A DNA stretch of 64,000 bases from Nautilus pompilius (lineage: Eukaryota > Mollusca > Cephalopoda > Nautilida > Nautilidae): NCBI GenBank assembly GCA_018389105.1, contig JACATO010002129.1, positions 1 to 64,000 on the forward strand. The letters run 5' to 3'. The notes under the pieces are model-generated. The model did no database searches. It saw only the letters and a program-made list of their open reading frames with translations, and had not been told where the DNA came from. Numbering within the stretch: the first letter of the stretch is position 1; every line of letters starts with the position of its first letter. A program made the position numbers and the translations under genes. This document shows, in pieces, positions 12,180 to 54,471 of this stretch.

Positions 12180-12210
<31 letters not shown>

Positions 12211-12300
12211 AACGTCATCTCTCTTTCTGTACTGCTCATCCCCCCCTCTCTCTCGTCTCTTACTAACGTCATCCCTTTTTGTACTGACGTCATCTCTCTC

Positions 12301-12345
<45 letters not shown>

Positions 12346-12889
12346 TCTACTAACGTCATCCTCTTTCTGTACGACGTCAAATCTCTCTCCTCTCATCCCT
12401 TTTCTGTACTGACGTCATCTCCCCCCCTCTCTCTCTCACTCTCTCTACTAACGTCATCCTCTCTGTACTGACTCACTTACTCTCTAGCTCTCTCTTCTAC
12501 TAACGTCATCCCTCTTTCTGTACTGACGTCATATCTCTCTCTCTCTCTCTCTCTATACAACGTCATCCCTCTTCTGTACTGACGTCATATCTCTCTCTCA
12601 CTCTCTAACGTCATCCTCTTTCTGTACTGACGTCATATCTCTCTCTCTCTCTCTCTACTAACGTCATCACCCTTTTTCTGTACTGACGTCATCTCTCTCT
12701 CTCTTCTCTCTCTATCTCTCTCTCTCTCTCTCACTCTCTACTAACGTCATCCCTCTTTCTGTACTGACGTCATATCTCTCACTCTCTCTACTAACGTCAT
12801 CCCTCTTTCTGTACTGACGTCATCTCCCCCCCTCTCTCTCTCACTCTCTCTACTAACGTCATCCCTCTTTCTGTACTGACGGACATCTC

Positions 12890-12943
<54 letters not shown>

Positions 12944-12972
12944 ACGTCATCCCTCTTTCTGTACTGACGTCA

Positions 12973-13039
<67 letters not shown>
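12180..13039 (+). repeat. CRE satellite family, array 1
   Basis: A CT-rich array of irregular units. Two alternating cores recur: CTACTAACGTCATCCCTC and TTTCTGTACTGACGTCATCT, separated by CT dinucleotide runs of variable length. The second core contains the full TGACGTCA palindrome about eight times here; the first has TAACGTCA. The array closes with a long CT run (12966-13039). Basic Arg-Glu or Ser-Leu frames that run through it are by-products of the dinucleotide repeat, not genes. Related arrays lie at 48.46, 50.16, 52.39 and 54.05 kb. Confidence 0.95.
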
Positions 13040-13042
<3 letters not shown>

Positions 13043-16000
13043 CGACAGCTGATGAAGGTAAACTCTAACTAATCTGCTTGCTGTTGTTCTCAAGCAGGAT
13101 AAGACAATATACCGCTGGCGTGTGGTTTCACCAGAACCGGGAGATCGATGATTGGTGAACAAAATCCTCTAAAAGAAAAGTTACAAAACGCGAAATCAAC
13201 AATTTCTACAAATAAAATTAAAAAAATTCTTTCTTTTAATTCCACGTAAAATCTAGTAAAAAAACAACAAATCTGAAAATTAGTTTCCCCTTTTAAATAC
13301 TAAGTTACTTTATCCCTTTACAGCAGACAATGACTATTCGCCATTATTTAATAACAAATAACTGAATCTCTACATTTTTTCGAGTGTCAAATAAAGAAAA
13401 TCGTCTCGTTTTTTTTACTGGCTTTCATAACGAAGTGAGAATCCCTCGCTTACGTGCATCCAGTTAAAAGTGAAAGTTAACTCAGTTTAGCGTATGACAA
13501 ATACCAGGCGGAACCCACGAGGATATTGCACTAATCTTGTCATGTTCCCTCGAGCAGCTAACAGTCTAGTCAAGTACCATCTCACTAAGCTAAACGTCAA
13601 ACGAGTGCAGATCATCAGTACCCTTATCCCACCTCCCGTTAACAAAGTAGGGTTTTTCCCCCACAAATGTAGCAGAGTGTACAGCCAGCCAGTTTGGTCA
13701 CGCCCCTGCCCTAAACTAAAGCTAGCGACAAAGAATGCTTTTTGGGGATTTAACCCGCGCGCTATTTACCTGACACGGTATAGAGTTGGTGGATTTCCAC
13801 ACCTGACTACGGTAGAGAATAGCTTCGTGGTAAGGAACAGGTGAACGGCCTTTAAACGGTTCCACGACTGAGAGATTTTTTTTAAAATTAGTCACTTAAG
13901 GTAATAAGGACCGACAAAAGTGATCGTTACAGCGACATACCCTTCCTAAACAATCTGCCATTGGACCATTAACTCGCAGCAGCGATGCGGTTTCCTTAGG
14001 GGGTCTGACCTTTCATCTAATGGTATAAAGAGACTCAGTGCATCTTTTTAAAGCGTAATGACATCGAAACCAGTCGTTTCGACTTCGATCTGTTCTTGGT
14101 GAGCTTCTAAAATCTGGTTTTCCTTCATTTTTAAATTATCTGGACGAACGTGTTTTTGAATTTTTACGCAAAGCACCTCAAATCTCGGAACAGTCGAGAA
14201 TTGGAAACAGAATCGGAAGGCGGTTGAGCAGTTCGGTGAAGCGAAAGCGAAGGGCCTAGAATGGTAATAGCGACAGATGGCCGAGTCCCTTAGAGAATAG
14301 TCTGGCAAGATAACGGAGGCGCGACAAGAACGATCGTCTTTGTTCAGAGCCGAAGTCGAGGCCTTGGCCTCAGTAGTCAGCAGGAACAAATTTGTGGTCT
14401 TAAAAGAAACTCACTAAACCTGGTAAGCAGAAGTGAGGGTAGGATGGGGCGAGGTCAAAAGAGGTGTGGTGACTGAGGTTGTAAAATCCCGAGGGGGGGG
14501 CGCGCACTGGCATAATGTACAACGAGAGAGGGCAGTTTAGCTATCGGGCAGTGCGCAGTCGGTTAGTCTGTTGGAATGCGTTGATTGAGGGCGCGAGAGA
14601 GATAAATTCCCGGTCGGGACTGGCCGCACTTTCCTGGCAAAGTTTCTTCACCAGCCGGTCGCGTGAGGATTTTCCGGGTTCTCCGCTTTCCTCTCAGATC
14701 TACAAAATAGGTGCGGCTAACCTCCACTGGTTTAGGAAACTGAAACCGGAAGCAGGGTAGGGAACGGATGTGGCTGATAATGAATTACACCCTCTGTCAG
14801 TCTCCCCAGGAAGTCACTTCCGTTCAGGCTTAGTCGATCGAGGGTCGAGAGCGCTCCATAGCCCTAACCCCGACTCAGCTCTTCTAAGTGCCATAAATTT
14901 TTCTTATATTTGGTCTTGTACAATTTGATGTTTGGTTTGCTAATTTTCTACATCAGGTAATACTCGAAGTCTCAGCAACAAAGAGCATCAGTAAATACTA
15001 ACTGGACTCAAAAACAACTTTGAAGCGATTATTGGGTAAAACTCCTGTGTAGAGTCCACAACTGATTCTTAAATCTCTTAATCACTTTAACGTTGTCTTC
15101 CGCTACAGTTGATGCAACTTCAGTTATAAGTAGGTCTTCAAGCCTTCCACAAAGGGGGTTGGGCCCGGAAATTAAGGTTTAGAGGTAGAATTAGTTGATA
15201 AAAAAAGCATGCCAAAGTCTTTCTCGATCAAGTGCAGATCAGTGGTTTACTGAAAAGTTAAGAGTCAGCTTCGTCGCACAGAAATGATTCCCTTATTGAA
15301 AGGAAGGAAGATCTTCAACGTCCATTCTTTGAACAGACCCATCGTGAGTTTATTTAATTAACGTCATGGCGTCGGTGACTACACCTTCCCGCTATCAACC
15401 ATAGTGTGGCTGCAGCAAAACCCATCATCAATAACTACCTTTCAGATTTATTAAATAATAATAGGGCGCGGTTTAATTTTTAATTTTCACCACATCTTCT
15501 CGTACCCTAAAATGAGTCCCCAGCCCCCCTTCCTTTCTTTTATAGGTTTACCAATTATGGTTCCTGACTTTCTCTTAAAAAGCAATTTATGTTTCTTCAC
15601 CGATTGATTAAATTCCTTTGGCGATCGAAGACGCACTTAAGACCGCGTAGCTGAAAGAACGAAAGTATAAAATAGTTTAAAGGAAAAGATATTTTCTGGT
15701 TCTGGTCCCTAGGCTATCGGTGTAGTCCAGCCGCCAGCCGGTCGTTACACGACGATCCACGGTTAGTGTATAAATACCGTTTCTAGCGATTTGTTAAACA
15801 ATAAGTCGGATTGATTTTCTAAAACCTCAGTAAAATAATTAAAAAAAAAAAAATTGCAGCGGTAAGGAAGGAACAAAGGGGACACGAGCCAGCGGAGATC
15901 TTGTGGGTTATCTGGCTGCAAGCACGGGGTGTCAACAACGGCGAGACGTAGATTAGCCCGAAGTGTTCTCACCGGCGGTGTAACTGTCCGAGAATCCGAG

Positions 16001-16119
16001 ACAACCAAACGGCGAGGTTCAGCGGGAGTAAAACGGTGGAATGGTAAAACGCGAAAGAGGGCGCTCTTTACGGACAAGTCCAACAACAGCGGGCGCGTAG
16101 CGGTCAATACACAACAGAT
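13040..16119. other. Unique sequence, no supported gene
   Basis: Mixed composition. Around 14430-14760 it is GC-richer, with a G run at 14492-14499. A good pyrimidine acceptor there (TCCGCTTTCCTCTCAG, ending 14698) is followed by a short frame ending IGAANLHWFRKLKPEAG and a stop, which could be a terminal exon, but nothing supports it further. Other frames (13494-13844 plus, 14048-14389 minus) show no motif. Confidence 0.4.
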
Positions 16120-16600
16120 ACAGTGAACCGTTGGGGCGGATCAGTGGAGACGTGAGGCTGCATATCAGCCAAGGGTATTGGAGATTTCGCATAAAATCGA
16201 AGAATCGTCGAGTGCCGAAAGATACAGGCAGGTTCTCGTCCACGATGTCATTCTCTCAGAAAGGCATCTCATTGGGCTGAGATTTATCACCCCAGGCATG
16301 CAGCCAATGTGGTGAGGACTATCTGTAAGGTAGAGGCTGGTGGAACATTGCACAGAGATACCGCGACCTGTACAAAGCCCTGATGTGAACACAGTTGAGG
16401 CTATACAAGGTTATATGGCTACGAAAACGTCATACGGTAAATGAGCACTTTATTGAATTGTGGAATGCACTACACTATATATGGAACAGGATTCCACAGT
16501 CTTACACTGATAACCTGCGTGGAAACACGAAAACAAGGTGTCATCCTCTACATAAAGCGAAGAACTCACACCAAATACTAAGGCACCGTAAAACTTATTC
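16120..16600 (+). mobile_element. Tc1/mariner-type transposase relic, lineage C
   Basis: Fragments of a Tc1-like DD34E transposase can be read in order on the plus strand with several frameshifts. They are ISGDVRLHISQG (near 16140), RYRQVLVHDVI (near 16218), HAANVVRTICK (near 16299), PVQSPDVNTVEAI (near 16372, the SPDxN motif before the third catalytic residue), and ELWNALHYIWNRIPQ with the C-terminal TRCHPLHKAKN (16460-16560). In intact relatives the last part ends in a basic RCxxxIxAxGxHT-type tail. Frameshifts and stops make it non-functional. The C-terminal sequence differs clearly from the two relics at 23.2 and 46.9 kb, so it is a separate lineage. Terminal inverted repeats were not found. 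Confidence 0.75.
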
Positions 16601-17559
16601 AGTTTTTGTATATTTTATGTAGGAAAATATCATTTATTCATCGTATGTGCATATCCTGTGCGTGTTTTCTTCCATGACTGTCTTCAGTACGGTGATGTTT
16701 CTGATCCGGCTTCGATGCTAATATTCTCCAATCAGACTCATATTTTTTTTTTTAATAATCAAATCTTCCATCGATACAATACACTGGTGGCCGTCATCTT
16801 ATCCTTTTGATTAGTGACGTCAGAACCTTTGTGAGCGGGCGCGGGGCACAATGACCCGCACGATCGCGTTTGTCCCCTTCTTCACAGGAGAGCTCTGCCA
16901 ACCACACACGCGTGTTTGACGTTTAAATCTAGTGCAATTTTCTTGATGAGTTCGAATTATACCAGTGATGTCGAATGTTGTTGTCCCCCCCCTCTCTCTC
17001 TCTCTCTCCTGCCCTACAGAATGATACTGCAACCGGGTTGGTTTTATTGCCAATTTTGTATACTTCATCACAGCAAACACAAAAAATATTATGATCTAAT
17101 CCGGCTGACAACAAGAGAATAATTCTCGCCTCAAGACTTAGCAATAAGCCGTTTCAAGACGTACATCCCTCCCCTCAGGTGATACTAGAGGTTTTATGCA
17201 TTTGTAAAAAGAAGAAAAGTAGGCGTTTTAGCAATTTTATATCATCATAAAATTAAAGTAATTGGTACGTCGTTCGCTAGAAAATAAATAAAAATAAAAA
17301 TGTGCTTCGGGGTTAGGTAAAGATACGTAAACTAGATTTATAATTAGTTAAATGAAAAATGCAGTAAAACTGAAGCTCCAAAACAAGAATTTCAATTCGC
17401 TGCGTTTTCATAATGGTCTCTGTCCTGGCGTGCCAGCTGTTTACTAATAGTGATAATTAATAACGAAATATTTCATTCCCACCACCCACCCTCTATTGTT
17501 TACTGAAGGAAATCGTTTAGAGAAACATCTCAAACCGGACTCGGCCTATCAGCGAACGC
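16601..17559. other. Unique sequence, no supported gene
   Basis: AT-rich, with a poly-T (16744-16754), a short CT run (16992-17009) and one perfect CRE palindrome at 16815-16822. No supported coding segment. Confidence 0.5.
16815..16822. promoter_or_regulatory. Isolated perfect CRE palindrome TGACGTCA
   Basis: Context TTAGTGACGTCAGAAC, in unique AT-rich sequence just downstream of the Tc1 relic. Confidence 0.3.
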
Positions 17560-18264
17560 GTTTCACGTATGAAACGTCACGTGCGCAGCCTTCCAATCGT
17601 AATGCCTAACGCGTTTCTTCTCCGGCGCCGGGCAGATTTTGACAGGAATCGATGCAGAACCTGAGCACCGGTCGGTCGTGAGGTCCGGGTAATGTAAGCG
17701 TTTAAAATCCCTGGAACGGGCCTCGGGTAATGGGGATGGGGGTGTGTGCGCAGAGGTCTGTAATTCTACGATGATACGTAATCGGGTGTTCGACTGGGAC
17801 GCTCCGGTCAGCGCCAACAACGAGCACGCGAAGTGTTTTCCGGTCGCCGCCGCCGGAAGTCGGTTGGACGCGCGCGCTTCGGCGGGCGCCAATAGACCGT
17901 GACGTTAAACGACCGTATCACGCAGGGGCTGGAAACGCTCCACCCTTCGTTTGTTGGCGGCACGCGCTTTGCTGAATTTCCCGCAACGTTTCCTACCTCC
18001 ATGAGGGTTCTTCGTGGTAACTGTTCCTATTTCCAGGCGAACCCGTGTGACTCGCGAGGACCGGCGTAGACGACTATGGCGTCGCTCCGTCGTTTTTGGC
18101 GTGGATGACCGACAGAGAATCTATGCCGGCTGAACCACGCTGCTGCTACACCTTCGTCCGTCCGCTCGTTGGTTGAAGCGAACTTTGGCCCGACTTGCAA
18201 CACCAGAGAGCTTATTAAGGGGGGGCCTGATGACGGACACGCACCTGCCGAGAGCCGGAGAGAG
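17560..18264 (+). promoter_or_regulatory. CpG-rich promoter-like block with 5' exon
   Basis: This is one of two marked CpG-rich blocks in an otherwise AT-leaning window. It ends in GAG followed by GTAAGT, a near-perfect splice donor with GT at 18265. Several short upstream frames precede the last ATG: 18001-18069, 18076-18108 and 18105-18176, the last two overlapping. Together this looks like a TATA-less CpG promoter and a 5' untranslated first exon transcribed on the plus strand. The transcription start cannot be placed from sequence alone. Confidence 0.4.
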
Positions 18265-19085
18265 GTAAGTATATATTCAAATTAATACTTAGTAATATGC
18301 TTCCCTGGGTATATTTCCTCAATTTTTCGTTGCTACAAAAAGATGGATAGTTTCCAATCTTTTGTAAATGTAACATTTTGAATTCCCTAATATTTGCTGT
18401 TGAAAAAAAAAAGGGGGGAGGGAATTATGTTGAATTTTATTGATTATCTTTCCTCTTTCATCCCTTATTATTTACTTGATTATCCTTATATAATTACCTC
18501 CCTTGTTTTGTCGGGAAAATACATACCATGAAGTAAAGTAAACATTCGGGGCTGGATGTTATCTATGTATAAAGACTTTATATAAGAAATTTTTCCATAT
18601 AAATTGAAGAGTAAAGTATGAACTCATTTTCAGTAGTCAAATTCTTAATATAACCTTTAATAATGCTTAGGTAAATGTTTTCTTGAGACAACAACCTGCC
18701 CACAACAGGGGCTGATTCTCTTAGGGGGGGGGAGTTGGAGCTGATTGTCCTCTTCCCCACCTAAATCGCGAGTGAGTCCGTTCCAGAGTAACAGTTAGGT
18801 GATGTGTATATATATAGAAAGCCTATGGTTACAAACACCTGGCTGTTAATCAGCATATGGCTTTACTATCTTACCAAATTCACTACCAGTCACGCTACTG
18901 CCACTAAACTATTCCCCAGATTTCCCTGAAACAATAAACAAAATACAAAATTCTACTTACTACGTGAAAGGATTTCTAAAATCGCTTCTTTCTTTTTAAC
19001 TAGGACCCTGACCACATCGCACCTGTCACGGCGGCAACAACTTCCCCTACAGGTTCGCGACGAATACTTGACACCGGTGCGATAA
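18230..19085 (+). CDS. Candidate spliced small frame, exons 18230-18264 and 19004-19085
   Basis: ATG at 18230 opens a frame (MTDTHLPRAGE) that reaches the donor GAG/GTAAGT at 18264/18265 after 35 bases. A pyrimidine-rich acceptor (CTTCTTTCTTTTTAACTAG) ends at 19003. Joining the two keeps the frame open through TLTTSHLSRRQQLPLQV to TAA at 19083-19085, 38 residues in all. The implied intron is 739 bases and contains a copy of dispersed repeat R2. No homology is recognised. The frame may be a real short protein, the start of a longer one if exon 2 ends earlier (for example at CTACAG/GTTCGC), or only another upstream frame in a spliced 5' UTR. Splice signals are the stronger part of the case; the protein call is weak. 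Confidence 0.25.
18547..18750 (+). repeat. Dispersed repeat family R2, copy 1
   Basis: About 204 bases, clearly alike to 34791-34990 in the same orientation. Shared blocks include GTATAAAGACTTT, ATAAATTGAAGAGTAAAGTA, GTCAAATTCTTAATA, TTGAGACAAC and CAGGGGCTGATT. Differences are mostly single substitutions and short indels. It has no coding potential and no obvious inverted ends, and it sits inside the proposed intron. A short non-autonomous element is likely. Confidence 0.85.
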
Positions 19086-23219: not shown

Positions 23220-24080
23220 AAAACCAAGCCTCTGTCCGAAGAGGACCGGCACAAGACGTCCGCTGACTTAAGGGATTTAGGGAAATACCGATTCTCGCAA
23301 GAACTATCCAGAGACGGCCGTGTAATTTCGAACTAATCGGACGCGATGCCAGGAAAAGATACTTTGTTTTCTCAAAGAATCGAAGAGTCTGACTTCAGTT
23401 TGTCAGGTAGCATTTCCATTGAACCCCCAGAGATGTGGGTCAGTGTCTTCTGGTCTTATAAATCATGGTTCCAGAGGTTTGGATGTTGGTTGGACTTATG
23501 TGCGGCAAATATTCGGTGAAGCATTCTGTCCGAAGTGTACCAAACCGACGATCAAAGGTGGAGATAGGTCCTTCATGGTACGGGGCAGTTTCCTCCGTAA
23601 GAGGACAGGGCCTATTTCTCGTATCCAGAGAATAATGGATACGGTTTTTTTTTAATCTTGACGAGTAACTGAGAATTGCCTCCCTCTCAAGTACATTTTC
23701 CAACATGATAACGATCCAAAACATTCAGCCGCCATCGTCAAGCAGCATCTCACAGACCAGAAAGTTCCAGTTTTTAAGTAGTCTGCCCGGAGCCCTGATT
23801 TGAATCCAAAAGAGAAGCCAATGGAACGATGCGGACAAAGCTATTCAGACGAGAAAGCCCCCAAATTTAGATAAGTTGTTCCAAATGATTCAGTCGACTT
23901 GGGGCCGATAATTGCTTAGACCGGTGTATTCGTCTTGTGGACCCCATGGATGAGCGCTGTCCAGGCTGTAATTGATGGTTATGGTTCTGCGGCCGAATTC
24001 TAATACTTCCGAGATCTATTTTATCGTACATCTTTAAAAATCGTGTTGTTTTCTTTTTCGTGACAAAATTTCGAGCGTCA
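23220..24080 (+). mobile_element. Tc1/mariner transposase relic, copy A
   Basis: Tc1-type motifs read in order: a helix-turn-helix segment (LSEEDRHKTSADLRDLG from 23232, then QELSRDGRVISN); ESDFSL at 23387, the first catalytic acidic region; RxFGEAFCPKCTKPTIKGG and FMVRGSF (23508-23594); RIQRIMD; FQHDNDPKHSA (23698, second catalytic Asp); SPDLNPKE (23791, third catalytic Glu); RLVDPMDERC and the C-terminal AVIDGYGSAAEF ending in TAA at 24001-24003. The catalytic core is broken by frameshifts, a poly-T insertion (23645-23653) and an in-frame TAG at 23779. About 50 residues normally between the helix-turn-helix part and the first catalytic region are missing. Non-functional. The 3' end matches copy B again beyond the stop codon. 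Confidence 0.88.
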
Positions 24081-28032: not shown

Positions 28033-28103
<71 letters not shown>

Positions 28104-28111
28104 TGATGATG

Positions 28112-37531: not shown

Positions 37532-39824
37532 CACTAAGTTTAAACGACTGGAAATCGGAAGTAATCAGAAATCTGAGTTTTAAAGTTAATTTCCACAGCC
37601 ACCACGGGTGACGGATTCTTGTAGATCGAAGTTAACTTCGACAAGAGCGTGAACAAGAGCTCTTTTTGTTTGCTTTTTTTTTTGCAGTTCAGTATGTATC
37701 AAACATTTCTTTGTATTTAATTTAAGATAGTTTTACAATTCAAACCGTGCCCCTCTCAATCGGAAAGCTAGAGAGCTTATTTTAAACCTCAGTTACTTAG
37801 AATTATACTGTGAAACACACACACACACACGTGTTGTTGTTGCTTTTTGACTTGTTATCGGAACGGTAGGTAATCGAGACAAACACAAACAAATCTACCT
37901 GCACCAGTTTTTCATTCGAAGTATTAACACAGCCATTTGGAAAAGAAAAAAAAGATGGTTTAGAAAGATGGTCAAGCGTTGCTTGCTGACAATCCGTGAT
38001 TGTCGACTCGTCAATGATATATGTCAAATTTCGCACATGAATCAAATTATTAGTGTATTTACATCTTTCTTTTCTCCACAAACCGAAGTTGGCACATAAG
38101 GCATCCTCCGGAGGAGAACAGAGGCAGAAGCTAGCCACAAGGTTACAACAAAATCCTATTAGAACCCTTCGTTTTTTTCGTTTATTTAAATGGATGCAAA
38201 AACAGGGGGTTGGAAAATCAATGCGTGAAAAAGTTGATTTAAAATTTTTGTCACTCAAAGACTTTTCCTTTTCGAATTATCCGTTCTGCATGCCTTTATG
38301 CAAAACTATTAGAAAGTTCTCTGGAAGTCACAGATACAGGCGAATGATGTCAGAAAGTTTCAGTCGTTTTATCAGTAGGTTGATGGATCAGAAGCCCCAT
38401 TTCCAATCTCATTGTGTTCAACCTCTTTTAATAAAGACTTCAGTCTGCAAAGGATTTATGCGAGAAATACGAATTTTCTCTTTGATATAACGCATTTATT
38501 TTTTGTCACCCTTTTAAAAAATACGGCTTAATTTTCTGTGTACTTGTAATGTTCTCGCCATCCAATGTCATTCGCGACCCGGGGTCGAAAGTCCTACTAC
38601 TGCCAGATGTGAGAGGAAATCCACGTGCCCTGCCGGTAAAGAAGAGACAAAGTCTCCCGCGAGAATCGAACTCCAGCCATCGACCTGAACGATCCAGTAT
38701 ATGGTACGACAGTTAATTTTCTTCCCTAAAATGATTTACTTTCGGCATAATGAACTATTAACAACAAAAAATAATTCAGAATAAATAAGAAAAAATTAGA
38801 TTTTGGAGCCGTGATGATATCATAACATATACTGCTTTAAATTAAGCAAGATTTTCCTTTTTTATAGACAGATTCTTTTCGTGTAGCCATCATAATTCTT
38901 TCAATTCCTAAACTGGCAGCGCAAAAAAATTAGACCACTATGGAGTGAAGAAGCCATATTTAAAATTCTTTATTCATTCTTTAAGTCACCTATAACATTT
39001 ATGCGGAAGACACGTCTCAATTTTATAGTGACACAGTGGAATTAATTATAGAAACACCACGAACTCAATAAGTTTGCTTTTGGTTTATATATGATATTTA
39101 AATATCTTTGTTATTATAATTCTGTCTCCCTAACTAAATGAGGAAATGCATATATATACTGTAAAAATACATTAATAAAATATTTCGATAATAAAGTAAC
39201 CAAAGTGCTTTGGCTTCTATAAGCGTATTTATTGCATGCCTTCGGCTGCGTAAAAAAAATCTTTTGAAATCTCAGGAAAAAAACTTGCGATATAAATAAT
39301 GAGAAATCCTTGAAATGTTGAGAAAATGTACTTGAAGGGGTTTAAAGAACAGTACAAAGAGAAAAATAGGGAAAGAATTTGCTAATGAACTACGTCAGAA
39401 TCTAGAGTGCCCGGTTGGTTTCGTTAGATGCTCACGGACGTTGATTTCGTGATGTAGTTGCTAAGAAACCGTTTTCATGTAAAAGAACAACAAACCCGTC
39501 CAGCGTATTCATAGCCATCTTAGCGGAATCTGTTTCCCCTCCACGTTAAAATTTTTATTATTTTTACCGTTTTCTCGGGGGAGAAATTTCCAAATTCGAG
39601 CGATTCCTCGTGACACAAATAAACCATGACAACTTGAACGAATAAAGGAATGACTTCGAATTCGCGGCTTGTATCTGTTGATTCTTCATAAATAAATTTA
39701 AGTTTCTTCCCCCCGTCTGTCTAGAATCTTTCACGCTCCAACAACAGCAATCGGTCTATGCGATAATCTCATAAGTTCTTGAGACTTCCTGGAACTTGTA
39801 CTGGTATCATATCTTAGCCGGCAT
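37532..39824. other. Mostly AT-rich sequence, no supported gene
   Basis: Contains an AC run (37815-37830). Overlapping frames of about 150 codons at 37803-38490 on opposite strands show low-complexity tails and no motif. A weak minus-strand B-box-like GAGTTCGATTCTCG lies near 38670. The stretch 38700-39400 is very AT-rich and empty. Confidence 0.45.
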
Positions 39825-40056
39825 AGACTTGTATTGCAACGATCTAGGTAATCCGAAAGTTTGGCTTAGAAAAACTATCTGTAGACTTGTACTGCAACGA
39901 TCTAGGTAATCCGAAAGTTTGGCTTAGAAAAACTATCTGTAGACTTGTATTGCAACGATCTAGGTAATCCGAAAGTTTGGCTAAGAAAAACTATCTGTAG
40001 ACTTGTATTGCAACGATCTAGGTAATCCGAAAGTTTGGCTTAGAAAAACTATCTGC
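39825..40056 (+). repeat. 58-bp tandem repeat, four copies
   Basis: Exact 58-base period with copies starting at 39825, 39883, 39941 and 39999. Units run from AGACTTGTATTGCAACGATC through TAGGTAATCCGAAAGTTTGG to CTATCTG. Copies differ at only a few positions (GTAC for GTAT in copy 2, CTAAG for CTTAG in copy 3), so the expansion is recent. No reading frame or known satellite is recognised. Confidence 0.97.
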
Positions 40057-40843: not shown

Positions 40844-42003
40844 TAAGCAAACAATGTTTATTCAATGAATATTTGAAAGATAATTGCCGCAGTTTACCAA
40901 AGAAAATATTGATCCTTGGGCCAAACTTGACGTAAAACATTACATCAAGTGGACTGTTAAGCACCAGTCACACGGGCCGATAACGGACAAATGCTACCTG
41001 CTGGCGAAAACCATTACAATTAGCGACGACTCGTCGTTATGATGCCGGCCAGGCAGGATAATGACCAATGGTGCCGTCGGAATGTCTACTTCCTTGTTAT
41101 CTCCAAAGATCGGCAGGCGACCTAGCCGCGCTGCTACAATGGTAATTGGGCACGTAGTGTTCGAATATCAAAAGCGGAAGCGTGGTAAGAGAAAGCAGAT
41201 CTAACTACATTGCTGTTACCAAACCTGACGTTTAAACTATCGACATTCTGCTGCCTGCATATTTCGCTGTAATGTTTCGGCGTGAGAGAGAGGTGACCAT
41301 CACGTGACTAAGGGGTGCCCGCGTAACAGAGCCGGCTTATTATCAAACTAGCGCTACCGATGTACACCAGTTCAACTATCGGTTGCCGCTTGCATAGTTG
41401 GCAGAAATACAGTTAGATCAACCAAGTACACTAGCCGACTAATCTTTTCGGGTCTGGTTTCGTGTTATGTAGCGGCTGCAGTTTATGGCTATGCAAACGC
41501 AGCATACGCTCGTATAACATCTGCAGAGGTTTATCAGCCGTCTGACAGCAGCCGCCGTATCATCTGACTGCGCCTCGAGTTCCTGACTGGTCGACCAATG
41601 GTGTAAGTACTGCTGAGAATTAATGGCATTTTCTCTGCGTAACCAGGAATGCGCAACAAACGTAGATAAAGCACTTTCGTTTTCTAATCATAAAATTTGC
41701 CATCAATTACAGTAGGTGAGAAACCCTGCCTCACACAGCCGAGATTAATGGCAACGAGACTCCACAGCCAGGCACATGTTGCTATTATATATCCAGCCCT
41801 ATTGGCTCTCGCGAAAACCGCTTATAGCGACCTCGTTCTCGGGAGGAGGCTGTTTGTTTGTGTTTTAGCTTAAGATCTGATCAGATCTGCTTCATCCCCC
41901 GACTATTTATTATTATTTTTTTTTTTTTTTGTTACTTCCACAGTTCTGGAATGAGGCTGAAACAGGCGCGCTGCAGTCTGTCCACGAGGCGCCACACACG
42001 TCG
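40844..42003. other. Unique sequence, possible 5' exon near 41602
   Basis: The 41000-41602 part is GC-richer and ends in CAATGGT followed by GTAAGTACT (GT at 41603), a good donor body but with a poor exon end. It could be a noncoding first exon on the plus strand. There is no other support. Confidence 0.3.
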
Positions 42004-42149: not shown

Positions 42150-42179
42150 GATATATATATATATATATTGTGTGTGTGT
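42150..42179. repeat. Compound (AT)n(GT)n microsatellite
   Basis: About ten AT units followed by five GT units. The same AT-next-to-GT junction occurs beside satellite array 4. Confidence 0.93.
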
Positions 42180-42748
42180 CCCTCGCGTCCGCCGTTTTTG
42201 ATGCATGCAGCTAAACCATCAACTTAGAGCTACCCGGATAATAAGGTAAGAACTAGTGGACCCCGAGACTGCCACGCCCCCCCCACCACTACTGCTGCTG
42301 AAGTTTTACACTCCTTCGGCCTTTCTTTATCGAGTATTGAGGATGCGTGTTCTGCTTAGACTGCACTGTGAATGACGGGAAATCGATACCCTCATTACCA
42401 AACTGACCCAGCAGACGCCTGTACATTATTAACGCGGTTGGCATTCTATAAATTAATGAGATCCGTGGCTCACAAAAACGTACAAGCCCAAGACAAATGC
42501 CGAGTAGTAGTTAACTCGCAGAAACGTCTTTTCATGCTTAGAAAAAAAGGAATAAATAAATGAAATAAAACTGACAGATGGAAAGTAAAAAATAATTAAA
42601 TGCTCAAAAAATGACAAAGGGTTAAGTGCATTTACAATATATGAAGAACCAGGAGGGGGGGTCAAACGCAATATATCACTGATGGGAAGTCGTCTATACT
42701 TCATCTTTAATTACCGACGTAGAGAAACGAAAAGGTGACCTCTACATT

Positions 42749-42750
<2 letters not shown>
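42180..42750. other. Unique sequence, no supported gene
   Basis: A consensus donor-like AAG/GTAAGA lies at 42245, without a supported exon in front. Confidence 0.4.

Positions 42751-42810
<60 letters not shown>
42751..42810. repeat. (GT)30 microsatellite
   Basis: Sixty bases of uninterrupted GT, the longest pure dinucleotide run in the window outside the CT arrays. Confidence 0.98.
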
Positions 42811-42812
<2 letters not shown>

Positions 42813-46864: not shown

Positions 46865-47630
46865 GATTATCTCAGAAATAAGCTGGTATTCACTAACAAA
46901 GATGTCGTCCGAAAAAAAATTATCATTTAGGAAACTGCCGATCTCCACGAGAATTGTCTGAAGATGGTTTTGATTTCAACTTGATGACGGGTTTTGCAAA
47001 GAAAAAAACTCTTTGTATTTTCAAATAATCGAAGAGTCTGACTTCAGTTTGTTAAGGACCATTTCCATTGGACCCAAGAAGTGTGAATCAGTGTCTTCTG
47101 GTCTTATAAATCATGGTTCCAGAGGTTTGGATGTTGGTTGGACTTATGTGCGGCAAAGATTCGGTGAAGCATTCTGTCCGAAGTGTACCAAACCGACGAT
47201 CAAAGGTGGAGATAGGTCCTTCATGGTACGGGGCAGTTTCCTCCGTGAGAGGACAGGCCCTATTTCTCGTATCCAGAGAATAATGGATACGGTTTTTTTT
47301 TTAAAATCTTGACGAGAAACTGAGAATTGCCTCCCTCTCAAGTACATTTTCCAACATGATAACGATCCAAAACATTCAGCCGCCATCGTCAAGCAGCATC
47401 TCACAGACCAGAAAGTTCCAGTTTTTAAGTAGTCTGCCCGGAGCCCTGATTTGAATCCAAAAGAGAAGCCAATGGAACGATGCGGACAAAGCTATTCAGA
47501 CGAGAAAGCCCCAAAATTTAGATAAGTTGTTCCAAATTATTCAGTCGTCTTGGGAACTCAACACGTGACCGTTAATTCCTGTTTGTCTTATGTCATCTTT
47601 AAAGATTGTTTCTTTGTGACAAAATTCCGA
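46865..47630 (+). mobile_element. Tc1/mariner transposase relic, copy B
   Basis: Sister of the relic at 23220-24080. A degraded helix-turn-helix part (LGNCRSPRELSEDGFDFN near 46910) is followed by ESDFSL (47035), RRFGEAFCPKCTKP, TGPISRIQRIMD (47253-47288), FQHDNDPKHSA (about 47349) and SPDLNPKEKP (47442). It shares with copy A the missing linker between helix-turn-helix and first catalytic region, a roughly 20-residue insertion before the FGEAF motif, and the in-frame TAG in front of SPDLN (47430-47432). The C-terminal tail present in copy A is deleted here, after which the shared non-coding sequence CATCTTTAAA and GTGACAAAATTC resumes (47593-47627). Non-functional. Confidence 0.88.
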
Positions 47631-48209
47631 ATATTCTGGATTCGTTCACTGACCTTTTTCGCCATGAAATTCCTTCTTGATGTAAGAAAAGTGAGCGCAT
47701 GCAAAATATTTACTACCGATCATGTTGATGTATATGTCGACCAAAGGAACAAGGAATTTGCTTTTCTATCGGTGTAATGTCCGTGGCTGGAACGGTTCAT
47801 TCTACATATTTTAAATGTCCGTTTATTCTGCCGTCGCTAATTAAAATTTGGTCCAAATCTCAGCACAACACTTGCCCCGATTTGAAGAACAGGGCGACTT
47901 ACGCGAGATCCACAGCAGCTCTCGGGTATCTCGTTCACAGGTTAGGCGTGGCCACTCCATAGAAATGTCCGAATTGTAGCGTGGCTGAAACTTTTGGGAA
48001 CCGTCAGAGATATGTCCAAAATACACCCCCCCCCAAGGGAGACAAATCTGCTGGGGGTTGGAAGGGGGGGGCAGCCATGTTCCTGGCACCTGCTGAGACG
48101 GCTTCTAGAAACACTAAACACCGTACAGTCAGATTACAAGGCTGATTCGCCGTCTCTTGGCAGGACCCTGAGACTAATACTCTGAAACGTCCAGGAACCA
48201 CTAAGCAAG

Positions 48210-48210
<1 letters not shown>
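47631..48210. other. Unique sequence, no supported gene
   Basis: Poly-C (48026-48033) and poly-G (48064-48070) tracts. No splice-supported frame. Confidence 0.5.

Positions 48211-48291
<81 letters not shown>
48211..48291. repeat. Compound (ATT)15(AGT)12 microsatellite
   Basis: Pure ATT triplets switching once to AGT near 48256. Runs of Asn and Thr in minus-strand frames here are artefacts. Confidence 0.97.
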
Positions 48292-48292
<1 letters not shown>

Positions 48293-48440
48293 CAACTAAT
48301 TTGTAAAACAGCTACTCCTTTACGATAACTACACCAAAGTAGAATCCAACCGTTACAAACTGCCAACTAACATTTCTCATTCATTTTGATCAATATATCG
48401 TCTTCCTTTCTTCCAAAAAGAGCAGAGCATTGTTACAAAC

Positions 48441-48463
48441 TCATATATATATATATATATATA
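48441..48463. repeat. (AT)11 microsatellite beside array 2
   Basis: Directly abuts the first CTGACGTCATC unit of the satellite array. Confidence 0.93.
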
Positions 48464-48743
48464 CTGACGTCATCTCTCTCTCTCTCTCTCTTCTCTCTCT
48501 CATCTCTCTCATCTCTCCCTCCCTCTGTACTGACGTCATCTCTCTCTCTCTCTCTCTCCTCTCATCTCTCTCTCCCTCTGTACTGACGTCATCTCTCTCT
48601 CTCTCTCTTCACTCTCATCTCTCCCTCCCTCTGTACTGACGTCATCTCTCTCTCTCTCTTCACTCTCATCTCTCCCTCCCTCTGTACTGACGTCATCTCT
48701 CTCTCTCTCTCTCTCTCTCATCTCTCTCTCCCTCTGTACTGAC

Positions 48744-48794
<51 letters not shown>

Positions 48795-48799
48795 CTCTC

Positions 48800-48886
<87 letters not shown>

Positions 48887-48889
48887 TGT
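48464..48889 (+). repeat. CRE satellite family, array 2
   Basis: Six ACTGACGTCATC cores separated by CT runs and CCCTCTGT linkers, with a rough period of 50-65 bases. After about 48755 the array degenerates into pure CT and then a TG run (48869-48888). Here the core is always TGACGTCATC; the TAACGTCA half-unit of array 1 is absent. Confidence 0.95.
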
Positions 48890-50162
48890 CAGACATCTAT
48901 TCCTTTCCAGCACTAAGTACACATCACGTCTACATCTCTCAGGTAAAAAGAACAAGAGGTCAGTATTCCGTCAGGCTTACTGGTGACACCATTATGCCGC
49001 TTGATGACTAGGTTTGGATCATTTATTAGCGAAAATAGTTGCACTCCTTATGTCTACCGAACGACGAAGTTACACAGATCGAGTCCTGTCGACTTCTTGG
49101 TCCTTTAATTAATTCGCCGCGGTCAGTCCTCACACACAAGCAATCATACCATGAGAAGATTGACGCTATGTTTCTGCATAATTTCTTACGGCCTCTTTCA
49201 GGACTGCTGGAATTATTTGGGTCCACTACAGCGATTCATCTCGCCTTTAATAGCAATAATCGATCTAGCTTCGCGCGTACATTCCTCGAGTGATGCTGAA
49301 AATTGGTCGTCGAAACCTCTGCACAACAGCTGCGTGATGTGATTCGCTCATCCAGATCGCCGCATCCGAGCCTTTGCTCGACGAACGAAGCGCAGCGAAC
49401 CGTCACTTCTGCGTCTTATACGAAGATACTCTCCCACCAGGTGTCGACAAGGTTGCAGGTGCTCGCCTCGTAAAATGTCGCTTCCGCGCTGAGGTTTGTC
49501 CAGTGACGGTCGCCTCGCAACCGTCGCGGCTACTGTGGCAACTCCCAGAAGGAACCTGCCCAACCCTTTGCACACATCTTTTGCCAACTTTATTGGCGAA
49601 TTTTCAAGTTGTCCGCTGGTAAAACTGAAATGGCTGAAAACGAACAGCCGTTATATCTCTTTACTCGTGGGGGCTGTCGGTTTCCACCCAGTCCGTCAGG
49701 TATGGACTCTGCCAAACGTCTGTACCCCTCCCCCGCCATCCGCCCCAGTAAGATGCATCTAAGCCGTGGAAGGTCTGCCGTCTAGCGACTCCTTCCAGGT
49801 GACGCTCAACTGACCGGCATTAACAGATGAATCATCATCAGCAGTCACACTTAATAAAGACAGGTAACAAACGGAAAATACAGAAGTCTTATAACAAATA
49901 TGGAACTTTGAGTTTACCTGGGTCGATCCAAAACAAAAATATTAAAGTTGGATTTGTATTTTGATCCTTAAGTAACAACAGCAGCAACAAAACTAGCGAA
50001 ATAAGGATTGATCAGGTGTTGATTCTTCCTCTTTCTAATCCATTTAGTGGTCGTCGTAAAAGTTTCTGTAACATACCAGACAGCGTAGCAGACTCGTTAC
50101 ATATACGATACATAAACTGTTAACTACAGAACGGATATTTATTAATTTACTTGCCCATCCCC
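48890..50162. other. Unique sequence, no supported gene
   Basis: GC-richer at 49330-49760, with overlapping frames on three frames and no splice support. Nothing else recognised. Confidence 0.45.
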
Positions 50163-50208
50163 TCCCTCTCTCTCTCTCTCTCATCTCTCTCTCTCCCTCT
50201 GTACTGAC

Positions 50209-50243
<35 letters not shown>

Positions 50244-50264
50244 TCTCTCTCCCTCTGTACTGAC

Positions 50265-50309
<45 letters not shown>

Positions 50310-50366
50310 TCTCTCTCCCTCCCTCTGTACTGACGCCATCTCTCTCTCTCTCTCTCTCTCTCTCAT
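50163..50366 (+). repeat. CRE satellite family, array 3 (TGACGCCATC variant)
   Basis: Three units with core ACTGACGCCATC and CCCTCTGT linkers. All three carry C for T inside the palindrome, so the CRE site is lost in the whole array in the same way. Confidence 0.95.
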
Positions 50367-50502
50367 CTACTAATATCTGTGTTTTCCCATTTTCCTCTTA
50401 ACACGATGTCTTCCAACGCCCGGTGACCTAAGGACCCTGTGTCCACTATGTGTATGTCACTATATCGACTCATGTTTTCGACAGCAAGTTCAGAACACCC
50501 GC

Positions 50503-50548
50503 ACGCACACGCACACGCACACGCACGCACATGCACATGCACGCGCGC
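50503..50548. repeat. (CACGCA)n-type imperfect repeat
   Basis: Alternating CACACG and CACGCA units, an AC-rich tract with regular CG steps, hence Z-DNA-prone. Confidence 0.85.
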
Positions 50549-50597
50549 ATTCTCCACGGAAAACGTTAACAGTAATAAAAGAATAAAAACCACTCAC

Positions 50598-51250
50598 CTA
50601 CGACTGTTTAGAAGCCCGCCACGTCTCTGTCGCCATGGATACTGGGAAGTAATTACCGGCTCGGTGCTCGAGGAGGAGGAGGAGGAGAGCCGGTGATGAT
50701 GGCAGCGACGCCGACCGACAGCTGGTATTTCCAGGACCAGGATCTGGACGGGTTCCCGCGCGCGCTCGGCCCGGGACCCGTCGCGAAACAGACATAAGGG
50801 CCGCTCTTGTTGATGTTTATTTGTTTGTTTGCCCTCTCGTTATCATGTGATTAGGCGGAAACTAACAACTGTCACGAACGGGACAAACGGGCCGCCGACT
50901 TCGGACCGGCCGTGAAACATCCGTAATGGAACATAAATCAATATCGTCACCGCGACGCGGCGCGAAAGGGACCGACGGTTATTTGCACAGGGGGGCAAGT
51001 TGTGTACAATGTCTTGTTATTATTAACAGTCTATGTTCCTTCGTCTCTGGTAGACGCGATCACCTTGTTTGCCGTAGTTCCCTTTAAATCCAGCCGACAG
51101 GGGCGACCAACGAGACCTTCCCGTGCGTCTGTTTCGTTTGTCCAGGACCGACTTTGCGCGCGAGGCGAGACCCCCCCCCCTCTCTCCCCGGTCCAGTTTC
51201 TCCAGCTGAGCGCACCCTGATATTTGTTGGAAATTAACAAATGTGACCGC
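50598..51250 (-). promoter_or_regulatory. CpG-rich promoter-like block with minus-strand 5' exon
   Basis: This is the second strongly CpG-rich block of the window. On the minus strand it ends at GTCGTAG followed by GTGAGT (GT at 50597-50596), a close donor match, as expected for a first exon. The strand is inferred from that donor alone. Inside, a minus-strand ATG with strong context (ATCCATGGCG, plus 50633-50635) opens a frame of 12 codons whose stop TAG overlaps the donor. The alternative donor GTC/GTAGGT two codons earlier would keep the frame open. A plus-strand frame of 33 codons (50696-50797) also exists. Satellite arrays flank the block on both sides within 1.5 kb. Confidence 0.35.
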
Positions 51251-52388
51251 CCCCAAAAGATCCACCTGCGGAGGAGGACATTTTCGACCAGTTATGTCTT
51301 CAGAGGATACACTTAAGGCAGATCAAACTAACGCAAAAGGAAAACGAGAGGAGTGGGTGGACGGACTCTTTATATTTATTGACCCTTAAACCTTTTGAGC
51401 TGACAGATCCCGGCCGGCTCAGCCCCTGTTCGATTATATTAAATTTTACTGCGGGTTAAAAATCGAGCCTATTTTGACCCCCAGCCGTTTTAATGGGAAG
51501 AGGGTCACCTTTAAGTGATATTTTAAAAAAAAAAAGGTTGGGGGGGGGGGCATAGATACCAAGTAAAAGTGGCCCTTTCTGTTTCTTTAATGCAGTCATT
51601 AAAGATGAAGTACAGAATTTTTAATACACCTTTCGAGCTGGGATGTTCGAAAAAGTAGTCGAAAGGATGCACGTGCACTAAAGATGTTTGCGGGATGAGG
51701 TGAGAAAAATTCTTCCGTCTTCCAGCCACCGCAGATCTGATGCTCCGCATTCACCGGGAATCTACTCATCCTCGACTCTGTTAACCGAAGCGCCGACGGA
51801 GATCGGTGCACTTAAAGAAATTTACCTATGTAGTTCTGTCCGGGTGTTAACAGGCTCCCATCCGTGAAACGGCTGGCAAGCACCTTGCAAAATTTCGGAT
51901 TTACAGCGAATTTAACGTTCAGAAAATTAATTTAATAACTTTTTCGATAATTTTGAAGTCATCTTGAAATAACGTGAACAGTAAAGCCTCAGATTTTTTA
52001 AAAAAAAAAAAAAAACTCGCAAATTTCATACAGTTTGCAAAAATATTTTTCTGATTAATCAATAGCGGCAGTTATTTCTGAGCATCTCAGATCTTCGTAT
52101 TGATCAACACAACACAATTTCGAATTAAAGAAATAGTAGGCCAAGTTACTACCGTAAACTGACCTTTAGTGTCTTTTATGGTGAATATGTCTCTTTTTTA
52201 TGTTCAAGAGAGAGAGAGAGAGAGAGAAATACTTATGCATACGCATATATGTAGACACAGATGGTGATAAATAAACAAAGGACGGACATATAGACAGAGA
52301 TACACACTCACATATGCATCTTTCTCTTGTTTATCTGTGTGTGTGTGTGTGTGTGTTTATATATATATATATACATCACTTTTTATAC
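51251..52388. other. Unique sequence with small microsatellites
   Basis: A11 next to G10 (51524-51550), T6/A16 (51994-52015), GA run (52207-52227), GT run (52337-52357) and AT run (52358-52372). No supported gene. Confidence 0.5.
51994..52015. repeat. T(n)A(n) self-complementary tract
   Basis: Six T and sixteen A. Confidence 0.85.
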
Positions 52389-52938
52389 AGACAAAGAGAG
52401 AGATGACGTCAGTAGAGGGAGATGACGTCAGTACAGAGAGAGATAACGTTAGTAGAGGGAGATGATGTCAGTACACAGAGAGATAACGTTAGTAGAGGGA
52501 GATGACTTCAGTACAGAGAGAGATAACATCCGTAGAGGGAGATGACTTCAGTACAGAGAGAGATGACGTCAGTAGAGGGAGATGACGTCAGTACAGAGAG
52601 AGATAACGTTAGTAGAGGGAGATGATGTCAGTACACAGAGAGATAACGTTAGTAGAGGGAGATGGCTTCAGTACAGAGAGAGATAACGTTAGTAGAGGGA
52701 GATGACTTCAGTACAGAGAGAGATAACATCCGTAGAGGGAGATGACTTCAGTACAGAGAGAGATGACGTCAGTACACAGAGAGATAACGTTAGTAGAGGG
52801 AGATGACTTCAGTACAGAGAGAGATGACGTCAGTACAGAGAGAGATAACGTTAGTAGAGGGAGATGACTTCAGTACAGAGAGAGATGACGTTAGTAGAGA
52901 GAGAGAGAGAGAGAGACACACACACACACACACACACA
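52389..52938 (-). repeat. CRE satellite family, array 4 (inverted, 40-bp period)
   Basis: The most regular array, in opposite orientation to the other four. A 40-base period is made of two 20-base half-units, GAGGGAGATGACGTCAGTA or GATGACTTCAGTA and GAGAGATAACGTTAGTA. Both half-units centre on 8-base palindromes (TGACGTCA and TAACGTTA). Variants ATGATGTCA and ATAACATCC also occur. The array is bounded by GT/AT runs on the left (52337-52372) and GA/CA runs on the right (52898-52938). Confidence 0.96.
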
Positions 52939-54050
52939 GGTGAAAATTTCAAATAAATCCCGGCTGGAATAGCGTCACCGCAATAATATCCGGCCGGCTT
53001 TCATTAGAATCTCTGGTTTCTCTAGTATACACAGACACGTGACATAATTAAAACAGAACTTGTTCGTGGGGAATCAGTGATTAATAGCTCAAATACCTCA
53101 AGACTTTCGGCATAGCTATTTTGGGTGAGCAGCATTTTCCTTCATTACTCAGCAGAGAATTGTCAACCTTGAAGCTTACTCGGGGAATTTTTAGATGCAG
53201 GTCTTTGACACCCGTTTACTTATTGGCCTGCCGGGGAAATGATATTTCGTAAAACGCAACTATAACTATGATAACCTTATGTTCGACAGGAGAAAATGGA
53301 TGCAGACTTTGATAAATACAATAAAATGTCTCGATTCTAAGTTAACAGGGGGAAAAAGTAACCTAAAGTTGTTTCCTTTTTAGACTAATAATGCCATTAA
53401 TTACTTTTAAGACTTTGATTTTAACCCTAACCCAACTAGCATACGCCCACTTTTATTTCTTCTAGACACTTATATGACTGGGGTTTTTTCAGAAATATTG
53501 TTGTCGTTTGCCTTTTTAGGATAAAACGGAGTTTGCCATCCATACATAGAACCAAAAAAATCAGAAATATATGTGGAGCTGGAATAAAACATTAAGTTTA
53601 CCGACATCGAAATTATTCTAAAAGTACTCGGGTAAAAGAAGTTTTTAAAAAAAATTCAGTTTCTTAAATAATTTACTAGCTGCAGGTGGACAGAAGATAT
53701 TGACATATACAAGCGATTATTAGCAAAGGAGAAGGGTCAATAACACGAGGCTTAGACTGATCAACAGCATCAGCTACACTCGTCGGTCATCCATTCCACT
53801 CATTAACTATTCTATTAACAGAAAATTATTTACTGATACCTAACAATGCTTGAATTTTTTAAAGTTATTCGTAATTGTGACTCATAGTATTAGTAACTGT
53901 AGATAGCTATAAAAAATATGTTCCTCTCTGCATATTCAAATCCCTAATTATTTGAAAAATCTTTATTAGGTCTCCTTTTAGCTGTCTAAATTTAAACATA
54001 GTAAATCTAGTACAGTCAGTTCATCAAACTTCTGTCTCTTTGCATTGAGG
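52939..54050. other. AT-rich unique sequence
   Basis: Nothing recognised between two satellite arrays. Confidence 0.5.
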
Positions 54051-54191
54051 TCATTTCTCTCTCTCTCTCTCTCTCTCTCCTCTCTCTCTATCTCTCTCTC
54101 CTCTCTCTCCATCTCTCTCCTCCTCCCACTCTCTGTACTGATGTCATCTCTCTCTCTCTCTCTCTCTCCTCCTCCCACTCTCTGTACTGAT

Positions 54192-54238
<47 letters not shown>

Positions 54239-54300
54239 CTCTCTCTCTCTTCTCCATCTCTCTCCTCCTCCCACTCTCTGTACTGATGTCATCTCTCTCT

Positions 54301-54356
<56 letters not shown>

Positions 54357-54377
54357 CCTCCCACTCTCTGTACTGAT

Positions 54378-54413
<36 letters not shown>

Positions 54414-54471
54414 TCTCTCCTCCTCCCACTCTCTGTACTGATGTCATCTCTCTCTCTCTCCTCTCTCTCTC
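54051..54471 (+). repeat. CRE satellite family, array 5 (TGATGTCATC variant)
   Basis: Five units with core GTACTGATGTCATC and CTCCTCCCACTCT linkers, separated by CT runs. Every core has TGATGTCA instead of TGACGTCA, which is what deamination of the central CpG followed by spread through the array would give. Confidence 0.95.

Follow-up and report, generated by a model that had tools for sequence, protein, structure and literature searches.

A minisatellite family with CRE octamers dispersed through CT tracts of the Nautilus pompilius genome

Five CT-rich arrays in a 64-kb window

The window, a stretch of 64,000 nucleotides of Nautilus pompilius DNA (contig JACATO010002129.1, positions 1 to 64,000), contains five arrays of short repeats that share a core motif and, in part, the CRE octamer TGACGTCA:

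12178..13040, plus strand: array 1, dimeric and CT-rich; CTACTAACGTCATC(C) alternates with CTGTACTGACGTCAT cores
48461..48889, plus strand: array 2, units of about 53 bp; TGACGTCA in 6 of 6 cores
50160..50366, plus strand: array 3, three units of 56/70 bp, all with the octamer TGACGCCA in place of a perfect CRE
52394..52938, minus strand: array 4, 40-bp dimers of two cores, with core-to-core distances of about 19 and 21 bp
54051..54471, plus strand: array 5, five cores within a CT tract, all with the octamer TGATGTCA in place of a perfect CRE

Across the whole window, the core GTACTGACGTCATC was matched 49 times with up to two mismatches, compared to 0.37 expected matches and a maximum of 2 in 100 shuffles. 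The arrays, confirmed here at their predicted positions, hold 48 of these matches (18, 6, 3, 16 and 5 in arrays 1 to 5), and the sole match outside lies at position 42000. According to the original prediction, all five arrays share this core and are built on the CRE. The shared core stands if two mismatches are allowed, but two of the five arrays lack the exact 14-mer (14 copies in the other three). Perfect CRE copies occur in arrays 1, 2 and 4, whereas arrays 3 and 5 lack any. Perfect octamers number 28 in the window (0.64 expected), with 9, 6, 0, 6 and 0 in arrays 1 to 5, i.e. 21 within arrays; the 7 isolated copies beyond them also exceed the expectation of 0.61. The heptamer ATGACGT, which forms part of the reverse-complemented core, occurs 48 times in the window instead of the expected 6.6.

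Copies are arranged head-to-tail with units above the range of about 6-10 bp, as in a minisatellite, although Tandem Repeats Finder reports array 5 as a TC dinucleotide array only. The same program gave unit lengths of 53, 56/70 and 40 bp for arrays 2 to 4, respectively. For array 1, it returned a 104-bp consensus with sub-units of 22-62 bp; the octamers comprise nine perfect TGACGTCA, nine TAACGTCA and two others after TACT, and some units carry indels. Array 2 starts right behind an (AT)n run and terminates in (CT)n(GT)n, and a GC- and CpG-rich stretch lies a few hundred bp or less from array 3. Array 4, in opposite orientation to the other four, has a mixture of octamers (TAACGTTA 7, TGACGTCA 6, TGAAGTCA 6, TGACATCA 2, TAACGTCA 1, TGAAGCCA 1) and, judged by eye, a repeated 160-bp block. 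A second core type, CTACTAACGTCATC / CTACTAACGTTATC, is also present in arrays 1 and 4. Homogenisation is array-specific in the five window arrays: the distance between units anchored at TACTGA was 2.85 within and 4.40 between arrays (0/2000 permutations), while the octamer taken alone gave 62/2000 permutations in the same kind of test.

Besides the arrays, a Pfam scan of 150 stop-free frames (the longest of 487 with at least 50 aa and not of low complexity) yielded four families with one member each, the best E-value among the 150 scans being 0.00059 (PRC2_EED_ins); the ten frames taken first had no Pfam match. Neither an Rfam match at gathering level nor a tRNA was found in the window, and a Tc1-like stretch within it had no match in a plasmid collection.

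Genome-wide dispersal and array borders

Searching the 727.6-Mb assembly for the exact core, part of the check proposed together with the original prediction, returned 17,620 copies compared to 20 for a reversed-pattern control. The predicted dispersed satellite family on TGACGTCA is therefore supported by a genome-wide distribution that is far larger than the window suggested and is not confined to it. Cores occur on many contigs and in both orientations; their loci are unlinked, and the flanks compared (see below) are unrelated. The core reads CTGTACTGACGTCATC, and sister cores carry CTCC, CTAC, GTAT or TTAG ahead of TGACGTCAT, which is all that the different subunit types have in common. 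For further analysis, 49 arrays were sampled, 35 of them located via the exact core and 6 via TGACGTCA; intact octamers are therefore over-represented in this sample.

Such a distribution could also have arisen if local mutation and amplification had given rise to similar cores in CT tracts again and again, with no movement between loci. The different subunit types, together with a TTACGTCACTAG array, are in line with this idea, but so many identical 14-mers are not plausible as independent events, and some arrays on separate contigs are highly similar (up to a cosine of 0.96). Independent origins are contradicted for the GTAC-type core and extremely unlikely as a general explanation; they could still hold for outlying subfamilies. 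In favour of the CT-borne spread proposed below, CT tracts occur in plain form: 8 of 12 CT/GA clusters in random stretches had no octamer within 60 bp (6/8 inspected). At 8 loci of the hemocyanin pair (C557/C1362) we found no CT tract of at least 12 bp and only scattered octamers, one mismatch being allowed.

Spacing and similarity of the arrays were analyzed in the same sample. Between consecutive octamers (one mismatch allowed, distances up to 120 bp), odd spacings (453) outnumbered even ones (123), i.e. 2-bp steps are favoured, and the commonest core spacings were 21, 17, 23, 39, 25 and 19. The k-mer cosine of array pairs was 0.508 within 60 kb on one contig (80 pairs) and 0.435 between contigs (851 pairs), a bias equalled in 5/2000 permutations. 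For 22 of 48 arrays the closest relative lay on the same contig, compared to 11.7 under the null (equalled in 1/1000). This local bias is modest: for pairs sharing a contig but separated by more than 60 kb it was not significant (347/2000), and the most similar pairs, with cosines of 0.92-0.96, sit on different contigs.

At their borders, the arrays pass into dissimilar unique DNA. An all-against-all comparison of 87 of the 98 flanks (the 11 below 60 bp were excluded) revealed no shared sequence except for two pairs at E <=1e-3, with matches of 17 and 20 bp. A signal of target-site duplication was absent as well: in 43 arrays, the flank-repeat statistic was 2.79, compared to 2.69 under the null (sd 0.13). 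These results bear on the possibility that a transposable element, e.g. Helitron-like or a MITE, carries the arrays as its tandem-repeat interior, with termini so short or decayed that they go unnoticed. Such an element would fit with arrays being scattered over many contigs in either orientation, and section 6 of the N. pompilius genome paper gives DNA transposons as the main class in this species (PMC8257504). Nevertheless, with neither common termini nor duplicated target sites in these flanks, borders in unlike DNA and similarity that is biased locally, we consider an element interior improbable. The same section describes transposons only, and the main text of the paper contains no word beginning with 'satellite' (PMC8257504). 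In the literature covered by our searches, which included a minority of subscription journals, the 13-mer TACTGACGTCATC did not occur and no report on this repeat was apparent from the search results. Neither the core in its CT context nor the two-core pattern had a match in viral and prokaryotic contig collections, which says little on other animals because of the organisms covered.

Conservation of the CRE octamer

The suggestion that the arrays sequester or recruit CREB/ATF factors, or serve as an enhancer reservoir, implies CREB/ATF-binding sinks, hubs or enhancers whose function would maintain TGACGTCA. Several numbers speak for it: the assembly contains 93,914 copies of TGACGTCA, counting array and non-array sites together, TGACGTCAT is common to otherwise different subunit types, and across units of every type the octamer has a conservation of 0.938 compared to 0.882 for GTAC (CI of the difference 0.022-0.091). 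However, this last difference arises because the subunit types share only TGACGTCAT. Within GTAC-type subunits alone, the octamer (0.939) and the adjacent bases (0.929) are equally conserved, with a CI of the difference from -0.014 to 0.037, and only 175 of 317 GTAC-anchored units contain a perfect octamer. Furthermore, some arrays are dominated by the CRE-breaking octamers TGACGCCA, TGATGTCA or TGACATCA/TGACACCA. A perfect CRE was found in 46 of the 49 sampled arrays, a sample biased to intact sites, but is missing in two of the five window arrays and, outside the window, in L067 (51 units) and L068 (20 units).

Variants of the octamer CpG point in the same direction. Genome-wide, its single-base variants number 2,750 and 2,033 and thereby equal or outnumber one C-to-T variant of the flank (1,995). 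In the sampled arrays, including the diverged L010b and L032, the two CpG transitions make up 22 of 41 array-level transitions, compared to an expected 25 % (p 8e-5). An excess of CpG transitions is the change expected under CpG methylation. As the decay is strong in the array sample but weak in the whole-genome counts, we regard it as no more than a hint that the arrays may be methylated. In the window alone, the octamer had appeared to be the most variable part of the core, an estimate anchored partly on TACTGA, whose bases were invariant by construction; this was rejected since the wider sample disagreed and gave equality without the CTCC- and TTAG-type units.

Judged from these sequences, the CRE looks largely like a passenger, because its conservation within one subunit type does not exceed that of the adjacent bases and whole arrays do without it. 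Maintenance by CREB/ATF binding therefore seems unlikely, and the suggested functions are unsupported by the sequence. As a decoy effect needs no selection, equal conservation leaves a CREB/ATF function unsupported, no more than that.

A proposed CT-borne spread and comparable systems

We favour, at a probability of roughly 60 %, a dispersed minisatellite housed in CT microsatellites, in which the CRE is mainly a passenger of the founding sequence. A short core inside CT tracts has been amplified to short arrays with array-specific variants; slippage of the CT tract would alter the core spacing, and unequal exchange or gene conversion would alter copy number and homogeneity. New loci could arise by recombination between a CT tract that carries a core and a second CT tract, either through ectopic conversion or through reinsertion of an excised circle. 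Since seeding of this kind needs only CT homology, it would explain CT at both borders, a feature that is partly a product of the criteria by which array ends were set. Among the analyzed arrays, we found neither a donor-recipient pair nor an empty site. If the arrays attract CREB/ATF factors at all, this would be incidental. The excess of isolated TGACGTCA outside arrays is unexplained by CT-borne spread.

By analogy with Atf1-Pcr1 at the M26 site of fission yeast, ATGACGTCA itself might be the engine: binding of bZIP proteins in the germ line would open the chromatin at CT tracts and raise the number of breaks, and arrays would grow and seed their neighbours by repair. In that case, the satellite would act as a recombination element that promotes itself through a transcription-factor site, with CRE-free arrays as its dead ends. 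That the subunit types share only TGACGTCAT and that arrays are locally similar would fit; the 51 CRE-free units of L067 and the equally conserved neighbours within one subunit type count against it, and we think that the idea is very unlikely to be correct.

Under the favoured reading of a CT-borne minisatellite, the nautilus genome would be a natural experiment in which binding sites were multiplied for reasons unrelated to regulation. This raises the questions of whether factors are titrated, whether the arrays are methylated and whether some have turned into enhancers. The CT/CRE arrays may be an undescribed part of the Nautilus repeat content, and short arrays with a perfect CRE number, by estimate, in the thousands. 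In their pattern, they resemble self-spreading repeat DNA more than a working switch, and they offer a tractable case for the spread of tandem repeats without a visible transposase.

The 1.688 satellite of Drosophila is a dispersed euchromatic satellite with short, locally similar arrays in unique DNA, units of several hundred bp and a spread without a known transposase. The nautilus arrays are likewise short, scattered in unique DNA and locally similar, but their unit is tiny, lies inside a dinucleotide microsatellite, is centred on a transcription-factor palindrome and belongs to a mollusc. Short units, slippage-like spacing and array-specific variants are shared with minisatellites and compound microsatellites; to our knowledge, however, ordinary minisatellite loci do not have one core in common across thousands of loci, as is the case in nautilus. 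In the mouse, satellite DNA sequesters the bZIP factor C/EBP. Many bZIP-type sites in repeat DNA are a common feature of both systems, the nautilus sites being predicted from sequence, and the nautilus arrays differ in being short and dispersed. Finally, the nautilus core, read as its reverse complement, has the heptamer ATGACGT in common with the fission yeast ade6-M26 recombination hotspot. According to a review, not every CRE sequence acts as a hotspot (PMC9775316). In contrast to the nautilus arrays, ade6-M26 is one site in one gene.

Arrays of the window

The original prediction described five arrays built on a 14-nucleotide core, which holds the CREB/ATF (CRE) octamer TGACGTCA and is set in CT runs. 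These arrays are real and far above chance: allowing up to two mismatches, the core occurs at 49 places in the window compared to 0.37 expected, and 48 of them lie within the five arrays, the copies there being tandem relatives and hence not independent sites. The octamer itself was found 28 times (0.64 expected), 21 of these inside arrays. The further claim of a CRE core in all five arrays holds for arrays 1, 2 and 4, whereas arrays 3 and 5 lack an exact TGACGTCA.

Octamers of the five arrays (window positions)
12178..13040, plus strand: array 1; TGACGTCA nine times, TAACGTCA nine times, two others
48461..48889, plus strand: array 2; TGACGTCA in six of six
50160..50366, plus strand: array 3; TGACGCCA in three of three
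52394..52938, minus strand: array 4; a mixture (n = 23)
54051..54471, plus strand: array 5; TGATGTCA in five of five

In array 4, a dimer of 40 bp is repeated, with an ungapped identity of 86% at a lag of 40 and 74-77% at lags of 80-200. By eye, a 160-bp block is repeated, and self-matches reached 86% at an offset of 160 bp and 91% at 200 bp. Unit-to-unit differences number 2.85 inside one array compared to 4.40 across arrays (0 of 2000 permutations); the same test on the octamer alone gave 62 of 2000.

Outside the arrays, seven isolated TGACGTCA sites were found (window 2437, 16815, 33622, 34411, 42004, 54739 and 57441) compared to 0.61 expected from trinucleotides. Multiplying the Poisson probability of 3.9e-6 by the 256 palindromes gives about 0.001, and by all 32,896 octamers about 0.13. 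Across 199.6 kb, 12 isolated sites with unlike flanks were observed. Both old array remnants and real regulatory sites are possible sources of the excess. CACGTGAC is likewise in excess (10 vs 1.05).

Two regions rich in GC and CpG (50400-51250 and 17500-18300) may be promoter regions; a putative 5' exon and its splice donor, seen by eye on the minus strand near 50600, would place array 3 in a first intron. Two unrelated minisatellites lie at 39824-40055 (4 x 58 bp) and 4168-4329 (3 x 54 bp, unit including ATGACGTC). A dispersed repeat has copies at 23351-23903 and 47000-47554 (95% identical over 556 aligned bp), with a frame that by eye resembles a degenerate Tc1/mariner transposase; a Pfam scan of this frame and a search of a plasmid collection found no match.

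Genome-wide extent and anatomy

The assembly searched comprises 727,640,739 bases in 2558 contigs, and the window is bases 1-64000 of its contig C2027; for Nautilus pompilius, an assembly of 730.58 Mb with a contig N50 of 1.1 Mb is published (PMC8257504). Exact copies of the core number 17,620, compared to 20 for its letters in reversed order, so this search, proposed with the original prediction, places the dispersed family well beyond the window. The observation is true, and its genome-wide scale is invisible from the window alone. For TGACGTCA, 93,914 places compare to 19,528 for the reversed ACTGCAGT, an imperfect control because it lacks the CpG. The first 100 core places listed form 35 loci by our own grouping. 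By extrapolation, the genome may hold about 6,000 arrays with an exact core, the first-listed contigs being perhaps atypical (37 and 38 cores per Mb in contigs C1 and C2, 24 in C5 and 24 genome-wide).

Fourteen random stretches (135,615 bp in total), located at preset positions of contigs spread across the assembly, contained three many-core arrays, two in stretch L010 and one in L021. The second array of L010 (L010b; L010:2894-5826) is an outlying subfamily: it spans 2.9 kb, adjoins an TGACGTCA array and carries GA/GACA repeats and, replacing the CRE, the core TTACGTCACTAG, which we take to be a PAR-bZIP-like site. Stretch L017 has one core-like site next to a CT tract; its octamer cluster at 1680-2000 is a different, non-CT minisatellite with a unit including TGATGTCAT.

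The sample of 49 arrays comprises these three from the random stretches, the five window arrays, 35 found via the exact core and six via TGACGTCA. Median length was 406 bp (range 107-2933; 47 arrays that retain flanking sequence on each side), a few lengths being lower bounds where the stretch end cuts the array. A typical array reads CTCTCTGTAC-TGACGTCAT-ATCTCTCC-TGACGTCAT-CTCTCT. The 4-mer upstream of TGACGTCAT, which defines the subunit type, is GTAC (218), CTCC (37), GTAT (24), CTAC (17), ATAC (4), TTAG (4) or a rarer one, and 175 of 317 GTAC-anchored units have a perfect octamer. The commonest octamer spacings are 21, 17, 23, 39, 25 and 19; odd spacings outnumber even ones by 453 to 123, as expected if linker length changes in full CT dinucleotide steps. 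CT runs lie on the plus strand in 25 arrays and on the minus strand in 24. Borders are mostly CT runs, sometimes GT or AT, against unlike unique DNA; CT at borders arises partly by construction, since CT content delimited the arrays, and is also plain in the raw sequence.

In the same assembly, the mollusc hemocyanin domain PF14830 has 14 matches, compared to none in 14 control genomes. Seven lie at C557:780-792 kb and the other seven at C1362:511-522 kb; these are either two hemocyanin genes or two haplotypes, about 89-96% identical over the compared stretches. The best single-stretch PDB matches of one unit were 4yd9_C (613.6 bits) and 1js8_A (593.3), presumably squid and octopus hemocyanins; longer chains total more over several stretches.

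Proposed spread between loci

Eighty-seven of the 98 flanks reached 60 bp, and comparison of these gave only two matching pairs (17 and 20 bp). No target-site duplication signal was detected in 43 arrays (statistic 2.79 vs null 2.69, sd 0.13). With L010b left out, arrays within 60 kb are more similar than those on different contigs (0.508 vs 0.435; 5 of 2000 permutations), and for 22 of 48 the nearest relative lies on the same contig (null 11.7). Pairs on one contig but more than 60 kb apart show no significant excess (347 of 2000), and the most similar pairs (0.92-0.96) lie on different contigs. Spread is thus locally biased, but not strictly local. Core-free CT tracts are common: eight of 12 CT/GA clusters in the random stretches have no octamer, allowing one mismatch, within 60 bp; of the remaining four clusters, three belong to L010. 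Of six core-free clusters read, the CT run of stretch L022 has GTACTGACA about 40 bp outside, perhaps a remnant.

Most simply, the core would move from CT tract to CT tract by CT homology, possibly through conversion and circle reinsertion. We read the family as a genome-wide, CT-borne dispersed minisatellite carrying a CRE octamer, with a probability of roughly 60%. This value was slightly lowered since the closest resemblances are between arrays that are not neighbours, and the two main rival readings gained marginally.

Octamer conservation and CpG change

Selection on the octamer, with arrays as regulatory elements, is a possible reading that we do not favour. Octamer sites match the core better than GTAC sites (0.938 vs 0.882; CI of difference 0.022-0.091; 697 units, 49 arrays), and TGACGTCAT is the sole part common to different subunit types. 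However, the difference disappears after removal of CTCC/TTAG-type units (0.939 vs 0.929; CI -0.014 to 0.037), which also drops units with C at the third base and leaves 554, and the equality is stable at thresholds of three and five mismatches. Moreover, CRE-free arrays exist. Exact TGACGTCA is absent from three of the 49 (window arrays 3 and 5, L010b) and from two arrays selected for TGACATCA, namely L067, with 51 units anchored on GTAC, and L068, with 20, whereas L069, from the same selection, has 13; this selection does not give their frequency. Genome-wide, the single variants TGACATCA (2,750) and TGATGTCA (2,033) compare to 1,995 for one flank base (GTAT), indicating no visible protection of the octamer at its CpG.

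Among the 41 array-level transitions of the array sample, 22 are one or other of the two CpG changes (25% expected, p = 8e-5); for transversions, the CpG share is 10 of 30 (p = 0.20), and array flanks have a CpG o/e of 1.01. These values hint at CpG methylation of the arrays, to which the genome-wide variant counts lend slight support. CREB binding is reduced by CpG methylation, and array methylation, if real, would argue against open CREB hubs.
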